From the NCBI RefSeq assembly GCF_000374825.1, contig NZ_KB895380.1, positions 1-64,000 of the forward strand: DNA of 64,000 nucleotides, in the 5' to 3' direction. Below, piece after piece: positions 1,350-63,906 of this stretch (positions are counted from its first letter, which is position 1; the number at the start of each line of letters is the position of its first letter). The position numbers and the translations under genes are program-made. Source of the stretch: Paenibacillus sanguinis 2301083 = DSM 16941. GTDB taxonomy: Bacteria > Bacillota > Bacilli > Paenibacillales > Paenibacillaceae. The notes beneath the pieces were generated by a model. That model did not search any database. It worked only from the letters and a program-made list of their open reading frames with translations, and was not told the DNA's origin.

Positions 1350-3845
1350 CTATTGAACAGTCACATGCGCCATGATCCGATCCTGTTCATAAGTGAGCTT
1401 AACGTTATACCCCTCAGCAGTGACAGCATCAAACTCACCTTGAACAGCCTTGGCTGTCGCCACCACCATATCCCGGGAGCCTTCCAGCTTATCGTTAGAA
1501 AAGTCCAGCTTCAGTGTTCCGCCGTTAACTTGCAGTGTGCCGCCGATTTTCAACGTACTATCGGCGTTGACTACAAGCGTGCCAGCTTCCACGCGAACAT
1601 CGCCTGTGCCAAACGCAGTCGCAGATTTAGCCTCCAGCGTTCCTGCTTCCAGCACGGTTCCGCCGCTGTAGCTGTTATCTCCGGTCAAGGTCAGTGTTCC
1701 GTTGCCCTTCTTCGTCAGCCCGCCGCTGCCGGAAATATCATTTCTCCACCAGTCCTGCGCATTGAAGCGCCCTTTGGAAGCGTCCATATCTACCGTTACA
1801 TGGTCCCGGAACGCCCCGTAGCCATCTGCTGCCGTTACCAGGTCGATTCGGCCCCAACCGCCGGACTCGTCCAGCACAGGGTAACCTGAGTCAATGGAGG
1901 TAGTATATAATACCTCTCTGCGCTGCTCATCGGTCAAATACGGCTGGCGGGTCTCCAACAGTGCTTCTGCGCCTTCAGGAACGACAGGCTCCAGCCCCTT
2001 TGTTCCTGTTTGTGGCAGGCCGTAAGTCAGCTTCGCCCGATAGAAGGCTTTGTTGGCGTCATGATCTTCCCATTTTTTCTCATCATATGCGCTCTTGAAG
2101 GTATAATCCTCGGTGACCGTATGCGCATATTCATACAGGCTCATTCCATGTTCCTGAGCCAATTTGCCAAAGACCTCGCCTGCATTCGCATAGGCCTTCT
2201 CCAGCACTTCCTTGTTCTCTGGCTTGTTCAGCGCATAGGCCGTCATCGCGGTCGCCTGGATTCTCGCGCCAATCACATCCAGCGGTGAATGCATTCCGGT
2301 GACGATGCGGTTTTCTCCCATTTGGGCTGCTCTGGTCAAAAATTCAGCATATCGTTCCGGCGTCGCGTAAGCAAAGGCAAATGTAGTCAGGTATGCCGCA
2401 CTAGTATGTCCACTTGGATAGGCTCCGTCCTTCCCCCGACCGTCTTCAGCAATTCTTCTTACATAGCGTAAAGCAGGAATTACCTCAACCTTGGTCTCAT
2501 ATTGCTGATAATGCTTCTCTCCCGTTGACTTTTTCCCTCCAGAGGCCAAGGGCTCCTCTGTCTTCTCCCCTTCACCCAGGGTTTCCCATACCGCTACTCC
2601 CTGTTCGTTAACAACCTCTACAACCTCGCCCTTGGAATTCATTCTCCAAGGTCTTGGAGAAGAGAAGAAATATTTAGAAGGATTGGAGGAGGCCGGTGTC
2701 TTAAAGCGAATCAAATCGACCAAGCCAACCATATCCGCAAGCTCCGAATTAGCCCAATCCTTGCCCAACCCTTGACTTTCATCCTCCACCGTCTCTTCGG
2801 TCAATACAATATTCATTTCATCAATGCTGCGTTCCACACTTGTCATTGGCTTGATAATATCCACATAGGTATTAGCCAGGGGACCAAAGGCATCCATCAT
2901 ACTATAGATTTTATCTCTCTGATCATCATAGTAGGCGGCAAGAGCCTCTTCATCGGTGCGATTTTGCGTAACATCCTCCACATATTTAATATTGGCCACC
3001 CATGCCGCTTGATTTCTGATCTCTTCCTTGGCATAGGTCTTCTTATCGGCAACTTTGGCCTTGGCATCATTTTTATAGCCATCAAAATAAGGAGTTGGTC
3101 CATCTCCATATTTGGCAACCTTGCCATTCGCCCCTTCCTTGGTTAACGCCGTTCCATCTCTCCAATCCGCCTGATTCATCGACCATATCTGATCAAAACC
3201 GTCTAGAATTTGAACAAACGGATTAGTGGCAGCGATATTCTTCAAAGTATCGTCATCCGCGTTCGCTCCATGCCGAATAGCCGATAAAGACCCTTGACCT
3301 TCAACCATCCCATTCGCATCCACCGCATGAACTAATGCAACAACAGCCTCGGCGCGAGTCATAGACTGCAAAGGCTTGAAGCTGCCATCCTTATAGCCTG
3401 CAAGCAAATTTTTTGCTACAACTGCACCTACAGCCCCCTTGCTCGACGCTGCGATGGAACCAGCATCCGTAAACACATCGGCGGCTCCCTCATTCTCTTC
3501 CAGGTTCATCATACCGGCGATGATCCGGGCTGCCTCCTGACGTGTTAAAGGCGCCTGTGGCTTATTCGTCTGATCCGCATAACCATTCGTATTGCCAAAA
3601 GCGCGATTCACCAAGCTCATGAACTCCGCTCTCGTAATAACCTTGTCCGGTCTGAAGGAATGATCCGAATATCCGCGCACCCATCCCTCATTCATCCAGG
3701 CCTGTATCTTGGCCTCTGCCCAGTGTCCCTTAATATCAGAGAATGAAACCTCCCGATCGACTGCCAAGGTTTGACCCGCAAAAGTTGGACTGGCCATAGA
3801 TAACAACAAAAGAGCTGCCAGTGATTTTTTCCATGATATTCTCAT
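1350..3845 (-). CDS. SLH-domain surface protein with PAP2 acid phosphatase domain and beta-strand repeat
   Basis: Predicted secreted, wall-anchored phosphatase of 831 residues. A signal peptide (residues 1-23, SPTFA cleavage) is followed by one clear SLH module (about 35-85: FSDIKGHWAEAKIQAWMNEG, GYSDHSFRPDKVITRAEF) and two weaker ones to about 175. The middle resembles class A/PAP2 phosphatases, with PSGHTSAAY near 478 and GENRIVTGMHSPLDVIGAR near 512-530 carrying the expected arginine and histidines. The C-terminus (about 700-790) has a GNGTLTLTGDNSYSGGT motif typical of autotransporter-associated beta-strand repeats, unusual in a Gram-positive protein. Substrate is unknown; the SLH modules imply attachment to the cell wall polymer. 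Start at 3845 has a GGGGAG 15 bases upstream, rather far. Confidence 0.85.
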   Translation of the reverse strand: MRISWKKSLAALLLLSMASPTFAGQTLAVDREVSFSDIKGHWAEAKIQAWMNEGWVRGYSDHSFRPDKVITRAEFMSLVNRAFGNTNGYADQTNKPQAPLTRQEAARIIAGMMNLEENEGAADVFTDAGSIAASSKGAVGAVVAKNLLAGYKDGSFKPLQSMTRAEAVVALVHAVDANGMVEGQGSLSAIRHGANADDDTLKNIAATNPFVQILDGFDQIWSMNQADWRDGTALTKEGANGKVAKYGDGPTPYFDGYKNDAKAKVADKKTYAKEEIRNQAAWVANIKYVEDVTQNRTDEEALAAYYDDQRDKIYSMMDAFGPLANTYVDIIKPMTSVERSIDEMNIVLTEETVEDESQGLGKDWANSELADMVGLVDLIRFKTPASSNPSKYFFSSPRPWRMNSKGEVVEVVNEQGVAVWETLGEGEKTEEPLASGGKKSTGEKHYQQYETKVEVIPALRYVRRIAEDGRGKDGAYPSGHTSAAYLTTFAFAYATPERYAEFLTRAAQMGENRIVTGMHSPLDVIGARIQATAMTAYALNKPENKEVLEKAYANAGEVFGKLAQEHGMSLYEYAHTVTEDYTFKSAYDEKKWEDHDANKAFYRAKLTYGLPQTGTKGLEPVVPEGAEALLETRQPYLTDEQRREVLYTTSIDSGYPVLDESGGWGRIDLVTAADGYGAFRDHVTVDMDASKGRFNAQDWWRNDISGSGGLTKKGNGTLTLTGDNSYSGGTVLEAGTLEAKSATAFGTGDVRVEAGTLVVNADSTLKIGGTLQVNGGTLKLDFSNDKLEGSRDMVVATAKAVQGEFDAVTAEGYNVKLTYEQDRIMAHVTVQ

Positions 3846-3916
3846 AACTGCAACAACACGCTCCCCTTCTCACAAATAGTTTACGGCGTTACTTTAGCAT
3901 CCGGGGGCGTCTGGCA

Positions 3917-3945
3917 GCTATAGAACAAATTCCGCTTTATATCAA
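3917..3945 (-). promoter_or_regulatory. Sigma-A-type promoter for the SLH phosphatase
   Basis: On the minus strand TTGATA (3945-3940), a 17-base spacer and TATAGC (3922-3917), about 70 bases upstream of the start codon. The -10 box is imperfect. The rest of the 308-base gap (3846-4153) holds only the promoter and ribosome binding site of the divergent gene. Confidence 0.5.
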
Positions 3946-4106
3946 ATTCGTACGTTCTGTCCCTTGATCTACAGAGAAAATCTGACGAATAATACATTCG
4001 TAAAATGGAGTGTAGATGTTTGTAAAAAAACATTAACATGAGGTAAATTTTTATTCGGTAGTTTGTTAAATTTTGATCAAGCTGATTTGGCGTCACAGCG
4101 CTATTG

Positions 4107-11937: not shown

Positions 11938-12226
11938 AAAGAGGTTGTTCAAAAAGTCGTCTTCATAGGACGTAGTTGTTTAAGGAGTAAATTCGACATC
12001 GAAGCTTGAATTCAGCCGGGCCTAGTATATTGCTTCTGCAGTATGTGTCTTTCTTGCAGAAACATTTGAGTTGCTCACGTCCCCCTGCTTCCGAAGTCGT
12101 TTTCTGCGAAAACGTGCAGCTCCGCTACTGACGTCCCTGACTTCATCGAGGCTCAAGCGTTTTGAAAAGACGCACATCGAAAAGCATAAACTTTGGTCCT
12201 GTGAACCCGACTTTTTGAACTCTCAT
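11938..12226 (-). mobile_element. MITE-like element, long form, copy 1
   Basis: About 289 bases bounded by GAGGTTGTTCAAAAAGTCG on the left and CGACTTTTTGAAC on the right (imperfect terminal inverted repeats), with TTAA-like bases outside each end. Inside are the shared core (CATCGAAGCTTGAATTCAGC) and a hairpin around TTCTTGCAGAAAC. No reading frame looks like a protein. It is in opposite orientation to the copies at 18457-19096. Confidence 0.75.
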
Positions 12227-12260
12227 TTAAATCCACCAAGAAACATGCGCATTACACGCG

Positions 12261-16981: not shown

Positions 16982-18430
16982 TTATGAGATACGACTCGCC
17001 CCAGCCCTTTCCAGCATTCCCCGAGCGATCCAGACCCCGGCGGCCCCGGCTTGAGCCAAGCCCCGGGTGATGCCGGCACCATCGCCACCGCAGAAAAGGC
17101 CGCTGATTTCCGTTTCCAGCGATTCGCTTAGCTTGGGGCGAGCTGAATAAAATTTGGCCTCTACACCGTAAAACAAAGTGTGCTCCGAGGCAATCCCCGG
17201 TGTGACTTTCTCCAGCGCCTCGACCATTTCAATCAGGCTTTTCATCGTGTTATAAGGAAGGACAAGCCCCAAATCTCCCGGCACCGCCTCCTTCAGTGTT
17301 GGCTCCAGGAACCCTTCCGAAATTCGACCTGCGGTTGAACGACGGCCTCGCAAAATATCCCCGTATCGTTGCACGATCACTCCGCCATTAGACAAATCAT
17401 TGGCCCGCTGGCAAATCTCACGTGCATATTCATTGGGCTTATCAAATGGGTCCGTGAATTTATGGGATACCAGCAAAGCGAAATTTGTATTATGGGACCC
17501 CAGCTCCGGATTTTTAAAAGAATGCCCGTTTGCCGCCATAACACCGCTATGATTTTCCACAACCACATGTCCCGACGGATTACTGCAAAATGTGCGCACC
17601 CGCGTGCCAACCGAGGTGTTATAGATAAATTTCCCCTCATACAAATGCTCGTTAATTTCCCGCATCACCACATCGGATGTCTCTACGCGCACCCCAACGT
17701 CCACCTGGTTATTCATCATCTTTAGCCGACGCTTCTTCAAAATTTCCGTCAGCCATGCCGAGCCGTCCCGGCCGGGAGCAACCATTACCCAATTCGCCTC
17801 ATGCGTGTCACCATTTTGCAGCGTAATCCCCTGCACCACATGGTTCTTATCCTGTTTAACCGTGATCAGGTCGGCTACTTCCGCCTTGAATAGCATATCG
17901 ATGCGAGTCTGCAGATATTCGTAAATGGATTTCAAAATCTCCAGATTTTGCTCCGTTCCCAAGTGACGCACCTGCGCACGCAACAGCTTCAAGCCCGCTG
18001 CATATCCCCGCTTTTCAATATCCTGCACCTCTTCGGTCAGCGGATCCGTAATCGCATGAGTAGCGCCATGCTCCAAATTAATCGAATCCACGTACTTGAT
18101 CAAATCAAGCACCCGGGATGGAGCAATATAATCACTTAGCCAACCGCCAAACTCCGTAGTGATATTAAATTTACCATCACTATAAGCCCCCGCACCACCG
18201 AATCCGGCAGTAATGGAGCACGCAGGCAGGCACCCCGCATATTCCTTACGTCCGGCAGCAGGCGGACAAAGCGTAATCTTATCCTCTAAAATCGGACATC
18301 TCCGGCGGTAAATATCATGCCCTTTGTCCACCAACAGTACCTTCCAATGCGGAGCCTTACGAGTTAACTCATAACAGGCAAATATGCCAGCAGGACCCGC
18401 TCCTACCACGATCACATCATATTTACTCAT
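16982..18430 (-). CDS. NAD(P)/FAD-dependent oxidoreductase (COG2509-like)
   Basis: Cytoplasmic flavoprotein of 482 residues. The dinucleotide-binding motif VVGAGPAGIFACYEL (residues 7-21) binds FAD. CPPAAGRKEYAGCLPACSI and TAGFGGAGAYSDGKFN (about 55-90) are hallmarks of the uncharacterised FAD dehydrogenase group COG2509, and the C-terminal GLFCGGDGAGITRGLAQAG closes the FAD site. Start chosen at 18430, where GGAGGT lies five bases upstream; the open frame extends 13 codons further. Upstream lie three tandem MITE-like copies and then a guanine-class riboswitch with its terminator and promoter, so the gene is probably controlled by purines. The substrate is unknown; purine control suggests a link to nucleotide metabolism. 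Confidence 0.85.
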   Translation of the reverse strand: MSKYDVIVVGAGPAGIFACYELTRKAPHWKVLLVDKGHDIYRRRCPILEDKITLCPPAAGRKEYAGCLPACSITAGFGGAGAYSDGKFNITTEFGGWLSDYIAPSRVLDLIKYVDSINLEHGATHAITDPLTEEVQDIEKRGYAAGLKLLRAQVRHLGTEQNLEILKSIYEYLQTRIDMLFKAEVADLITVKQDKNHVVQGITLQNGDTHEANWVMVAPGRDGSAWLTEILKKRRLKMMNNQVDVGVRVETSDVVMREINEHLYEGKFIYNTSVGTRVRTFCSNPSGHVVVENHSGVMAANGHSFKNPELGSHNTNFALLVSHKFTDPFDKPNEYAREICQRANDLSNGGVIVQRYGDILRGRRSTAGRISEGFLEPTLKEAVPGDLGLVLPYNTMKSLIEMVEALEKVTPGIASEHTLFYGVEAKFYSARPKLSESLETEISGLFCGGDGAGITRGLAQAGAAGVWIARGMLERAGASRIS

Positions 18431-18456
18431 CTGTACCTCCAGAAATGAATAGTATA

Positions 18457-18728
18457 AGTGAGCCTTCAAAAAATCAGGTTTTCAGCATCAAAGCTTATGC
18501 TTGCGATGTGCGTTTTTTTCAAAAGGATGAAACTAGGGACGTAAGTAAGGAAGCTTTTCGTTTTCGCAGAAAATGACTTCGGAGCATGGAGTACGTGAGC
18601 AACTCCAATGTTTCTGCAAGAAACATACTGCGTAAGCTATGCTAGCCCCGGCTGAATTCAAGATTCGATGTCGATCTACACCTCGAACAGCTTCGTCCTG
18701 GGATCACAACTTTTTGAACTACTTCTTT
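18457..18728 (+). mobile_element. MITE-like element, long form, copy 2
   Basis: About 272 bases with degenerate left end (CTTCAAAAAATCAGG) and right end CAACTTTTTGAACTACTTC. It shares the long internal segment with the copy at 11938-12226 (for example TTTCGCAGAAAATGACTTCG), read in the opposite direction. Its left edge lies about 27 bases from the start codon at 18430. Confidence 0.72.
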
Positions 18729-18912
18729 AAGTGCATGTTCAAAAAGTCGGGTTCTCAGGACCGAGAAGGTTGAATGAAGCTAGGGACTGAGTAGCGGAGC
18801 GTAGACAGATCTACGTGAGCAACGCAAGGCCCGGCTGAATTCAAGATTCGATGTCGAATCTACTCCTTGAACAGCTTCGTCCTGGGAAGACGGATTTTTG
18901 AACTACTTCTTT
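18729..18912 (+). mobile_element. MITE-like element, short form, copy 3
   Basis: One 184-base unit from TTAAGTGCATGTTCAAAAAG to the next TTAAG. Left end AAGTGCATGTTCAAAAAGTC, right end GATTTTTGAACTACTTCTT. It has small hairpins (GTAGACAGATCTAC; GATTCGATGTCGAATC) and the core GGCCCGGCTGAATTCAAG. Confidence 0.8.
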
Positions 18913-19096
18913 AAGTGCATGTTCAAAAAGTCGGGTTCTCAGGACCGAGAAGGTTGGATGAAGCTAGGGACTGAGTAGCGGAGCGTAGACAGATCTACGT
19001 GAGCAACGCAAGGCCCGGCTGAATTCAAGATTCGACGTCGAGTCCACTCCCTGTACTGCTTCGTCCTGGGAAGACGACTTTTTGAACTACCTCTAA
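18913..19096 (+). mobile_element. MITE-like element, short form, copy 4 (tandem of copy 3)
   Basis: Nearly identical to copy 3 at a period of 184 bases. The right end CGACTTTTTGAACTACCTCT joins directly the poly-T of the riboswitch terminator at 19095-19103. Copies 2, 3 and 4 are joined head to tail. Confidence 0.8.
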
Positions 19097-19154
19097 AAAA
19101 AAATTCCCGGCTATTCATAGGTATGCCAAAGCACCCTATTCGTAGCCAGGAATT
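19095..19154 (-). terminator. Riboswitch expression-platform terminator
   Basis: Minus-strand stem ATTCCTGGCTACGAATAGG ... CCTATGAATAGCCGGGAAT with a run of nine T. The 5' arm uses the P3/J3-1/P1 strand of the aptamer (TACGAA), so ligand-stabilised P1 and the terminator arm interact as in purine-switch off-regulation. Confidence 0.85.
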
Positions 19155-19206
19155 TGTGGTTCCTTGTAGAGACCCTCAATCCATATTATCGAGGTTATAC
19201 GAACGT
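19139..19206 (-). ncRNA. Purine riboswitch, guanine type
   Basis: On the minus strand P1 (TTCGTA / TACGAA) encloses ATAACCTCGATAATATGG, P2 closing GAGGGTCTCTAC, and P3 AAGGAACC...TTCC with the conserved loops (GATAATATGG, CACAAAT). This matches the purine aptamer layout closely. The specificity base in J3/1 is C (GGCTACGA), which in xpt-type switches pairs with guanine or hypoxanthine; adenine switches have U. Gene control target: the FAD oxidoreductase at 16982-18430, about 670 bases downstream beyond the MITE-like copies. Confidence 0.92.
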
Positions 19207-19239
19207 TAGCTATCTCATGTATCTCCCTGAAACAACCAT

Positions 19240-19268
19240 AGTATATTGAAAAAAATAGACCAAGTCAA
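19240..19268 (-). promoter_or_regulatory. Sigma-A promoter driving the purine riboswitch
   Basis: TTGACT (19268-19263), 17-base spacer, TATACT (19245-19240) on the minus strand, about 35 bases before the aptamer. The remaining bases to 19476 are AT-rich and hold a TATAAT-like box for the plus-strand gene at 19477 without a clear -35. Confidence 0.8.
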
Positions 19269-19476
19269 GTTTAAAAACCAATTAATATTCGTATTTAAAT
19301 TAAAAATACAATTACATTCATTATTAAATCCATATAAACCACAAATAAACACGAACATTAATATAATTAATTACTTATTTTGTTGACTTTCCCTAATTAG
19401 CTTTCTCTAGCCAGCCTATTATATAATAAGCTTATGCTTTATCACTTTAATATTTAACAAGGAGTAGATGTAGAGA

Positions 19477-20784
19477 ATGGACAGTGACAGGCTTTTGGTA
19501 TTGTACTTGGTTTTGGTCGTAATCCTCATTGCGCTCACCGCATTTTTCGTGGCCGTAGAGTTTGCGATAGTACGCGTCCGGGGGAGCCGGGTTGATCAGT
19601 TAATTGCGGAAGGGCATAAGGGGGCGCCCGCCGTGAAACTGGTAACCTCGAATCTCGATGGTTATTTGTCAGCATGTCAGCTTGGGATCACGATCACCGC
19701 GCTGGGACTTGGCTGGCTAGGGGAACCTACCGTAGAGAAAATACTTCATCCGGTGTTTCAAAGCCTTGAATTACCTGAAGCAGTCAGCAGTGGGCTTTCT
19801 TTTATTATCGCATTTGTAGTCATTACTTATTTACACGTGGTTGTCGGGGAACTGGCCCCAAAAACGATGGCCATTCGCAAATCCGAGGAGATCGCCTTGC
19901 TTACGGCCAGACCTTTGATCTTGTTCACCAAGATCATGCGCCCGTTTATCTGGACCTTGAATGGCTCGGCCAACCAGCTTGTACGCCTGATCGGCATCAA
20001 GCCCGCCTCCGAGCATGAAGATGCTCACTCGGAGGAAGAATTGCAAATCATCATTAACGAAAGCTTTGAAAGCGGCAAAATCAACCAGAACGAATACGGA
20101 TATGTAAATCGTGTTTTTGCGTTTGATAACTTGCTGGCTAAGGAAATTATGGTTCCGCGTACCGACATGGTGTGCTTATATACGGATAAGACGCGGCAAG
20201 AGAATCTGGATATCATCAAGGAACAGCAATACACACGTTTTCCCGTGGTGGAAGGCAGCAAGGATAATATTATTGGCGTCATTAATACCAAGCAATTTTT
20301 CTTATCCTATGACAGTAATCCCGACCTGGAGCTTGCTTCCTTGCTACAGCCGGCCATGACGGTGTCGGAGGTTACTCCAATCAACGAATTGCTTAAAAAA
20401 ATGCAGGCTGAAGGCACTCACATTGCTATTCTGATTGATGAGTACGGCGGGACAGCCGGACTAGTCACACTGGAGGATATCCTTGAGGAGCTGGTCGGAG
20501 AGATCCGGGATGAGTTCGACAAGGAAGAAGAAGATCCACTCGTACAACTAAATGAGCATCATGTGGTTGCCTTGGGAACCGTAACCGTTAATCAGATTAA
20601 CGAAGTGCTGCTGACAGGGCTCAGCACCGAGGAAGTGGATACCATCGGCGGCTGGCTCTATGGCATGAATCCGGCGATGGACGTGGGCGAAACGCTGGAG
20701 CATGAAGACCTGACCTTCAAGCTGCTGGAGAAAGAGCCTCACCGTTTCAGAAAGCTTGAGATTATGAAGCAAGGATCGGCCTAA
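19477..20784 (+). CDS. CNNM/HlyC-CorC family membrane protein with CBS domains
   Basis: A 435-residue inner-membrane protein of the hemolysin-like family (YrkA/YhdP/YugS type). Members are linked to magnesium or other cation export or sensing; 'hemolysin' is a historic name. The DUF21/CNNM membrane domain covers about 1-190, with helices at 5-30, 65-85 and 105-125. A CBS pair follows (about 205-335: MVPRTDMVCLYTDKTRQENL; GTHIAILIDEYGGTAGLVTL), then a C-terminal transporter-associated domain (about 350-430). AAGGAG is 12 bases upstream of the chosen start. It is divergent from the riboswitch promoter and ends at a strong terminator. Confidence 0.92.
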   Translation: MDSDRLLVLYLVLVVILIALTAFFVAVEFAIVRVRGSRVDQLIAEGHKGAPAVKLVTSNLDGYLSACQLGITITALGLGWLGEPTVEKILHPVFQSLELPEAVSSGLSFIIAFVVITYLHVVVGELAPKTMAIRKSEEIALLTARPLILFTKIMRPFIWTLNGSANQLVRLIGIKPASEHEDAHSEEELQIIINESFESGKINQNEYGYVNRVFAFDNLLAKEIMVPRTDMVCLYTDKTRQENLDIIKEQQYTRFPVVEGSKDNIIGVINTKQFFLSYDSNPDLELASLLQPAMTVSEVTPINELLKKMQAEGTHIAILIDEYGGTAGLVTLEDILEELVGEIRDEFDKEEEDPLVQLNEHHVVALGTVTVNQINEVLLTGLSTEEVDTIGGWLYGMNPAMDVGETLEHEDLTFKLLEKEPHRFRKLEIMKQGSA

Positions 20785-20866: not shown

Positions 20867-20932
20867 TAGTATAAGTACGAGTTCAGACGAAAGCACATGC
20901 CAGGCCCGGCTGAATTCAAGATTCGATGTCGA
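20867..20932 (+). mobile_element. Truncated MITE-like copy 5
   Basis: Holds the TAGTATAAGT edge and the core GCCCGGCTGAATTCAAG plus ATTCGATGTCG, but lacks the right inverted repeat. It ends four bases from the stop codon of the gene at 20937. Confidence 0.65.
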
Positions 20933-58095: not shown

Positions 58096-58098
58096 GTT

Positions 58099-58215
58099 TC
58101 ATTTCGAGCTCATAAATAGCTAGTCAAACACAACCATCTTAACTTCGAGTCTATAACCAGCCACTTAATCGCAACCATCTTCATTTCGAGCCCATAACCA
58201 GCTACTTAATCGCAA
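58099..58215. repeat. Tandem repeat block, 41-base units
   Basis: TTCGAG recurs at 58103, 58144 and 58185 (41-base period) with the shared text ATAACCAGC...CTTAATCGCAACCATCTTC. Copies 2 and 3 are close; copy 1 is decayed. Confidence 0.85.
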
Positions 58216-58242
58216 CCATCCTCTTTACGAAACCCTTTGTTG

Positions 58243-63785: not shown

Positions 63786-63906
63786 AAAGTGTATGTTCAA
63801 AAAGTCGGGTTTTCAGGACCAAAGCATATGTGAATTCAAGATTCGATGTCGAATCCACTCCCTGAACAGCTTCGTCTTGGCAAGACGACTTTTTGAACAA
63901 CCTCTT
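63786..63906 (+). mobile_element. MITE-like element, very short form, copy 7
   Basis: About 120 bases: left AAAGTGTATGTTCAAAAAG, core TGAATTCAAGATTCGATGTC, right CGACTTTTTGAACAACCTC. An internal segment present in copies 3 and 4 is missing. AAAG-type bases flank both ends. Confidence 0.75.

Follow-up and report, generated by a model that had tools for sequence, protein, structure and literature searches.

A tandem array of MITE-like repeats with a predicted single-strand fold lies between a purine riboswitch and its gene in Paenibacillus sanguinis

Three head-to-tail copies of a short repeat lie at positions 18453 to 19093 of the stretch of Paenibacillus sanguinis DNA analyzed here (64,000 nucleotides, called the window throughout), flanked on one side by a purine riboswitch terminator and on the other by the start codon of a gene for an FAD-dependent oxidoreductase (Table 1). 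The repeat is MITE-like, its family is widespread and apparently undescribed, and its plus strand is predicted to adopt a branched single-strand fold that is shown below to covary, within the limits of our controls. We consider it probable that the array is a non-autonomous passenger in an insertion-tolerant linker between terminator and ribosome-binding site, with little change to the ON/OFF behavior of the switch, and that the fold serves the mobilization of the element.

Architecture of the array

The original prediction placed three MITE-like tandem copies between riboswitch and gene, starting at the poly-T of the terminator and ending about 27 bases before the start codon, and in all these respects it agrees with what we found. 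The right edge of the array adjoins the A-run at 19095 to 19103, which on the gene strand forms the T-run of the terminator, and 22 to 29 bases separate the left edge from the ATG at 18430, the figure varying with the inclusion of the flanking TATAAGT. No open reading frame of at least 80 amino acids is contained in the array; the FAD gene extends into copy A only through a listed alternative TTG start codon at 18469.

Table 1. Features of the riboswitch locus and further repeat copies in the window
Positions	Strand	Feature	Basis
11939..12228	-	Repeat copy, long subtype; empty site in P. senegalimassiliensis	Contig comparison
16982..18430	-	Gene of 482-aa FAD-dependent oxidoreductase	Pfam PF21688 FAD-depend_C
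18436..18440	-	Shine-Dalgarno GGAGG	Sequence reading
18453..18459	+	Left flanking TATAAGT, probable target-site copy	Sequence reading
18460..18725	+	Repeat copy A, long subtype (additional modules inside)	About 81% identity to L145, L148, and L149 along the whole copy
18726..18732	+	Spacer TTTAAGT between A and B	Sequence reading
18733..18909	+	Repeat copy B, short subtype	193.3 bits with model R1 (B itself in R1 training set)
18910..18916	+	Spacer TTTAAGT between B and C, resembling the flanking target consensus	Sequence reading
18917..19093	+	Repeat copy C, short subtype	194.0 bits with model R1 (C itself in R1 training set)
19101..19155	-	Intrinsic terminator	Predicted fold; 5' arm includes 3' strands of aptamer stems P3 and P1
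19123..19222	-	Purine riboswitch aptamer, guanine type	Rfam RF00167, 66.6 bits, E 1.8e-9
19240..19268	-	Promoter-like site of riboswitch transcript, TTGACT-17-TATACT; predicted start about 19233	10/12 consensus matches
20886..20932	+	Core remnant of repeat copy; full-length in relative	Contig comparison
63787..63906	+	Repeat copy, core deleted; site common to P. senegalimassiliensis	Contig comparison

Copy A matches the covariance model R1, built from an alignment of 43 copies, only weakly (E 3.2e-4), and it is 77.1% identical to copy B and 75.3% to copy C. Copies B and C are 94.6% identical, with 9 differences across 167 core positions, and 8 of these differences fall in the right 59 positions, so that the pair is a mosaic with 99.1% identity in the left 108 nt and 86.4% in the right 59 nt. 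The claim that these two copies are near-identical thus holds for their left parts and fails for their right parts. In their right parts, B is nearest to the copies L122 and L124 and C is nearest to L117 (94.9% in each case); compared from end to end, C is 95.2% identical to L117, located elsewhere, versus 94.6% to B. The units compared in four other arrays of the genome are 98.8, 98.2, 97.6, and 94.2% identical. Given the mosaic and the fact that C is as near to L117 as to B, the likeness of B and C is no proof of one recent duplication of a whole copy, and a simple recent duplication of the pair was partly rejected because the right 59 nt of each match copies elsewhere more closely than they match each other. 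Judging from their letters, the left parts look locally exchanged or duplicated, and the right parts look like the products of separate histories: unequal crossing-over or gene conversion may have homogenized the former, with the latter keeping their own ancestries.

A widespread repeat family with MITE features

In the 4.8-Mb genome, the right and left end motifs of the repeat occur 120 and 67 times, respectively (up to 3 mismatches), compared with 0 occurrences of reversed control patterns. Model R1 yielded 87 matches, one site being matched on both strands, which leaves 86 places in 76 clusters. Eight of the clusters are tandem, and nine of ten spacers between the counted cores measure 17 to 18 nt, the other one 44 nt. 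Tandem copy number, including that of the window array, is taken from an assembly in which contigs C2, C8, C25, and C30 (genome G000) end inside repeat copies or arrays; such arrays may therefore break or shorten assemblies.

Beyond this genome, matches were present in 88 of 197 sampled genomes of the Paenibacillaceae, distributed over 12 of 19 genera, and were absent from the other 109 in a search that scored 14 candidates per genome under stricter filters. A DNA query recovered the repeat in 31 of 59 relatives. Tandem pairs of the same period recur in other species (e.g., in G237, G022, and G060), and copies are found in two Paenibacillus plasmid records. Carriage by phages was rejected as a candidate, phage records having given no repeat match.

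The ends of the repeat are inverted: the right end of C corresponds to the inverted left end of B at 88% over 25 nt, the ends that face each other where two copies adjoin show 84% and 80% complementarity over 25 nt, and 93.6% of the cells in the resulting outer stem are paired across the 43 copies. Sizes range from about 177 bp for the short type to about 290 bp for the long type, plus shorter deleted forms. With these inverted ends, small size, and copy number, and with the target duplication described below, the repeat is MITE-like. Among the matches listed for this genome, inspection by eye found no pair of ends 0.7 to 3 kb apart that could mark a parent insertion sequence. When 77 clusters from this and other genomes were placed relative to genes with a simple open reading frame caller, one lay inside a reading frame; the flanking genes were codirectional in 29 and 25 clusters (either sense), divergent in 16, and convergent in 3, and 3 clusters had one neighbor out of sight. 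No clear strand bias relative to genes emerged among these 77.

The window contains no match of the repeat to an Rfam family at gathering score (Rfam 15), and at E values up to 1 the interval 18400 to 19500 returned for it only a chance-like hit to mir-9261 (26.6 bits against a threshold of 86). Among the open-license PMC papers listed by our literature searches, none dealt with the repeat, and the family, widespread as it is, is apparently undescribed.

Insertion and decay of individual copies

Evidence for mobility comes from the comparison of contig C5 of this genome with contig C11 of Paenibacillus senegalimassiliensis. The copy at 11939 to 12228 is flanked on both sides by TTTAA (possibly TTTAAGT with one change), which occurs once in the empty site of the relative. 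More generally, the strings shared by the two flanks were longer than in shuffled data (mean of 4.16 versus 3.36, reached by 0 of 500 shuffles) in a set of 74 end pairs that are not independent, because most elements were counted on both strands and tandem neighbors were included. The duplicated target is AT-rich and about 5 to 8 nt long, with a consensus that we read as TWTAAGT, and the spacer of the window array fits this consensus. We propose that elements of different subtypes were brought side by side when they inserted into, or recombined at, the TWTAAGT target copies at the borders of each element; insertion into a target copy beside an existing element would produce arrays of this kind and permit a mixture of subtypes. 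At least three tandem clusters (C3:116933, C5:18517, and C7:141453) mix copies of different length.

The same comparison reveals how copies decay. Six sites are shared between the two species (18456, 20886, 46894, and 63787 in the window, and contig positions 130849 and 133007), and at none of the six do both species hold a full-length copy; one or both bear internal or terminal deletions. This count covers one species pair and one contig, and it leaves out the right-end motifs at C5 280657 and 319143, which have no counterpart in the compared contig. Four elements are present on one side only, namely, 11939 here and 123794, 199084, and 286424 of the other contig, and the place matching 286424 holds a right-end-like motif. 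The lack of any shared copy that is intact in both species speaks against upkeep of individual copies at the level of the host.

A covarying fold in the plus strand

The fold of the repeat was assessed on an alignment, A1, that comprises the 43 copies: 21 of 32 units from this genome and 22 of a further 24 listed units, after removal of copy A, of near-duplicates, of truncated and insert-bearing units, and, from the 24, of the window's own two. On A1, the plus strand is predicted to close on itself through an outer stem in which the inverted ends pair; within it lie an inner stem, a stacked arm that contains an internal hairpin, and a hairpin on the 3' side. In this structure, 94.4% of 2,480 cells are paired, versus 91.4% in shuffled alignments. 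Cells in which both partners have changed number 73, against a mean of 24.1 in shuffles, 0 of 500 of which reached this value, and against 3 to 14 for slid structures; pairs with changes on both sides number 11, against a mean of 7.3, a count reached by 3 of 500 shuffles. These contrasts have to be read with the provisos that the structure was predicted on the same strand and alignment, which favors it, and that the shuffles ignore the relatedness of the copies. The internal hairpin alternates between several complementary versions, and pairs 58-89, 25-153, and 15-163 swap between different Watson-Crick pairs. At pairs with a Watson-Crick majority, G-U accounts for 75 cells and A-C for 30, an excess that points to the plus strand as the folding one, either as RNA or as single-stranded DNA. 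The consensus fold of the prediction tool itself has 41 pairs, of which 9 have both partners changed, and its covariation term is only -1.66 kcal/mol; the structure behind the 73 double-change cells is a separate script fold obtained with other settings. For the long subtype, 10 sequences gave 3 of 88 pairs changed on both sides, and the forward and reverse energies are alike (-111.2 and -109.4).

Such a fold could mean that the repeat encodes an RNA that is useful to the host and that copies are kept for this reason. Covariation, the strand asymmetry, and the spread over 12 genera are what one would expect of such an RNA. However, none of the six shared sites is intact in both species, presence varies widely (109 of 197 genomes are without a match under the stricter filters), and no promoter of the repeat's own was seen above shuffles: promoter-like sites occur 1 time in 30 upstream of the left end and 9 times in 50 beyond the right end, against a baseline of 94 in 600 for shuffled sequences around the copies. 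We therefore regard a host-useful RNA as improbable. Selection seems instead to act on propagation rather than on use by the host, and, given that single copies decay, the conserved structure most likely serves the mobilization of the element itself.

A tentative extension, to which we give a low chance, is that mobilization acts directly on the folded plus strand, as a branched RNA or as single-stranded DNA, somewhat as SINEs rely on an RNA fold. If this were true, it would explain why covariation occurs without conservation of single copies at the host level, and it would also explain the modular subtypes and the head-to-tail arrays that recur across this bacterial family.

The riboswitch and its linker in relatives

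The aptamer scores 66.6 bits, above the curated threshold of 37 for RF00167, and aligns to that model without insertions. Its core, searched with an expression allowing up to 2 substitutions, precedes the same gene in every one of 80 loci examined, the best-scoring 80 among 289 relatives, which span Paenibacillus, Fontibacillus, Saccharibacillus, Cohnella, Brevibacillus, and one genome labeled Bacillus; Rfam confirmed the riboswitch in all 15 loci submitted. The discriminating base of the aptamer is C in the window and in all 80 relatives, which we take to indicate the guanine rather than the adenine type.

Part of the 5' arm of the predicted terminator consists of the 3' strands of stems P3 and P1, and a ligand-bound aptamer should therefore keep the terminator from forming. 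At least 7 of 10 P1-side positions are paired in the terminator fold in 71 of the 80 relatives, and four to six are in the other 9. With at least four such positions paired in every locus, ligand binding and termination are predicted to be mutually exclusive, and the switch is by prediction an ON switch. The combination of a guanine-type switch with this predicted ON architecture before a PF21688 gene is seen in 80 of 80 loci. As to the promoter of the transcript, shuffles of the region yield 2.2 sites on average in the same scan, so the 10/12 match of TTGACT-17-TATACT is by itself no evidence, and a TTGACT or TTGACT-like box followed by TATACT can be read 5' of the aptamer in L012 to L016.

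Guanine-II riboswitches, which are ON switches and carry an insertion in J2-3, occur in Paenibacillus according to one report (PMC9295807). The window switch resembles them in its guanine-type C and in its predicted ON terminator architecture, but its aptamer is free of the insertion and its gene is an FAD oxidoreductase rather than a phosphoribosyltransferase.

The distance from aptamer core to ATG is 62 to 358 nt in the 80 loci. In 25 of 26 other loci of the genus, the linker from core to gene measures 70 to 139 nt, whereas the window, measured in the same way, has 704 nt (the end point of some of the genus distances is 6 nt short of the ATG); in the remaining locus, L194, the expression search found no riboswitch core.

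Consequences for expression of the gene

Because the terminator precedes the array, the simplest reading is that the array is a passenger in a linker that tolerates insertions, and with the decision point likewise upstream, the array should not be transcribed in the OFF state. When no ligand is present, transcription would stop at 19095 to 19103 and the array would stay silent; when ligand is bound, the polymerase would read through about 640 nt of extra, strongly folded 5' untranslated region. The ON/OFF decision itself would change little. The suggestion in the original prediction that the array may abolish riboswitch control finds no support: aptamer, overlapping terminator, Shine-Dalgarno sequence, and gene are all intact, and the decision falls before the array is reached.

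The original prediction had also raised the possibility that the array adds RNA structure, and here the folding calculations, all in silico, are in agreement. Since the array is antisense to the riboswitch transcript, the leader holds the complement of the repeat's folded strand; on the gene strand, it folds at -199 kcal/mol, compared with -175.5 kcal/mol for 20 shuffles (z of -3.5), which makes effects on elongation, translation, and mRNA stability plausible. A modest effect on translation or mRNA decay is thus possible. A stronger version would have the array alter expression through double-strand-like hairpins in the leader, with RNase III cuts or a change of stability or translation leading to lower or uncoupled output. 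This would fit the strong predicted gene-strand folding, the start codon that is predicted to be less open in the window (unpaired probability of 0.04) than in L011 to L015 (0.18 to 0.38), and the cleavage of Correia elements by RNase III at their inverted ends, as described in one paper (PMC10969869). It fits less well with a Shine-Dalgarno sequence that is predicted to be open (mean unpaired probability of 0.80 in the window and 0.81 in L011, against 0.37 to 0.63 in L012 to L015), with the occurrence of linkers as long as 358 nt in relatives, and with purifying selection on the gene, for which the comparison with L011 gives a dN of 0.023, a dS of 0.654, and a dN/dS of 0.036, though these values average over the whole time since the species split. 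We judge such an alteration of expression to be rather unlikely, though it deserves to be kept in view.

The array might, alternatively, supply a promoter and thereby let the gene escape from riboswitch control, as the original prediction had also allowed. What favors this is only the position of the array 3' of the terminator, where a transcription start would bypass it. A weak consensus scan found no gene-strand promoter-like site inside the array, and the sites around copies elsewhere (1 of 30 and 9 of 50) are not clearly above the shuffled 94 of 600, which makes escape by this route very improbable. A terminator scan listed no gene-strand terminator inside the array either, a null that is weak because the same scan missed the real riboswitch terminator, and it returned two weak plus-strand sites at the right ends of B and C. 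A passenger array in the linker stays the preferred reading.

Probable traces of the repeat at the same locus

Comparison of the leader in relatives, the check proposed along with the original prediction, found the array in none of the 80 related loci and in none of the 25 readable loci of the genus. At the orthologous place of P. senegalimassiliensis (L011), the nearest named relative found (95% protein identity), the gene strand reads T-run, AAAAAGAGGTAGT, ACTGATACT, and then the Shine-Dalgarno sequence, with no array. Nevertheless, AGAGGTAGT, the conserved right end of the repeat (9 nt), stands beside the T-run of L011 in the same position, so that the common ancestor probably already carried the element, or at least this end of it, at the site; a chance match of nine letters is less likely. 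On the grounds of position and nine matching letters, the element was probably at this site before the split from P. senegalimassiliensis, and it was then probably either largely lost in that species, or the window array grew on an older remnant. The claim that the array is recent is accordingly weakened: the array is absent from every relative examined, but the close likeness of B and C is confined to their left parts, C is as near to L117 (95.2%) as to B, A belongs to another subtype, and L011 retains an end-like remnant.

Other leaders hold further hints. That of Paenibacillus oralis (L018) keeps GACTTTTTGAACAACCTCTA, a repeat end in the opposite orientation, and is the only one of the 80 leaders with an end motif within one mismatch. 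The leader of Paenibacillus vini (L017) has a scar-like ATAAGTACCTCTATA. An excision scar was rejected as a general signature, given that the pattern WTAAGTACCTCTWTA from L017 had 0 exact matches in 39 genomes and fewer one-mismatch matches there than its control pattern; without enrichment, the scar in L017 is only a lead. Separately, the 358-nt linker of L029 (Paenibacillus sp. HW567, 3643 to 4000) holds an apparently different inverted-ended repeat and, as read from its letters, is a possible second case of an insert between this riboswitch and its gene.

Relation to known repeats and wider meaning

In its mode of working, the repeat appears nearest to repeats of the bcr1 type and to BOX and RUP repeats, a likeness drawn from descriptions of these elements. 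In two papers, bcr1 is a short intergenic repeat of mobile type in the Bacillus cereus group, with 11 to 130 copies and reported as confined to that group; bcr1 to bcr3 are termed MITE-like and are often located in untranslated regions, and a TTTAT motif is linked to mobility (PMC6542083, PMC3446304). Compared by description only, our repeat is likewise short, intergenic, of mobile type, and MITE-like, but it differs in its TWTAAGT target consensus, its recurrent tandem arrays, and its hosts, the Paenibacillaceae.

The BOX, RUP, and SPRITE elements of Streptococcus pneumoniae are described as interspersed repeats that are small and folded and show MITE features; BOX elements are built from modules, among them boxB units in tandem, and in one case a large BOX and two T-box riboswitches make up a composite RNA (PMC3049150). 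Our repeat shares the small folded form and the MITE features so described. It differs in that whole elements are repeated here and an inner module there, and in its hosts. Correia elements are also known as NEMIS. They and ERIC are repeats with inverted ends that lie within transcripts and alter RNA processing, according to one article (PMC10969869); our repeat likewise has inverted ends, and its hosts differ.

The locus provides a natural test of whether a riboswitch of the terminator type can put up with several hundred added nucleotides separating its decision point from its gene, and it reveals a repeat that is found across a family, has a covarying predicted single-strand fold, and has no Rfam match. 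If that fold is needed for mobilization, such repeats would be more than shortened insertion sequences.

Further features of the window

No tRNA gene was found in the window. A match to Group II intron D1-D4-3 (RF02001, 126 bits) lies at its edge, at 15 to 185 on the minus strand. At 58098 to 58220, a 41-nt repeat is present in three tandem copies, two of which are 71% and 83% identical to the reference copy.
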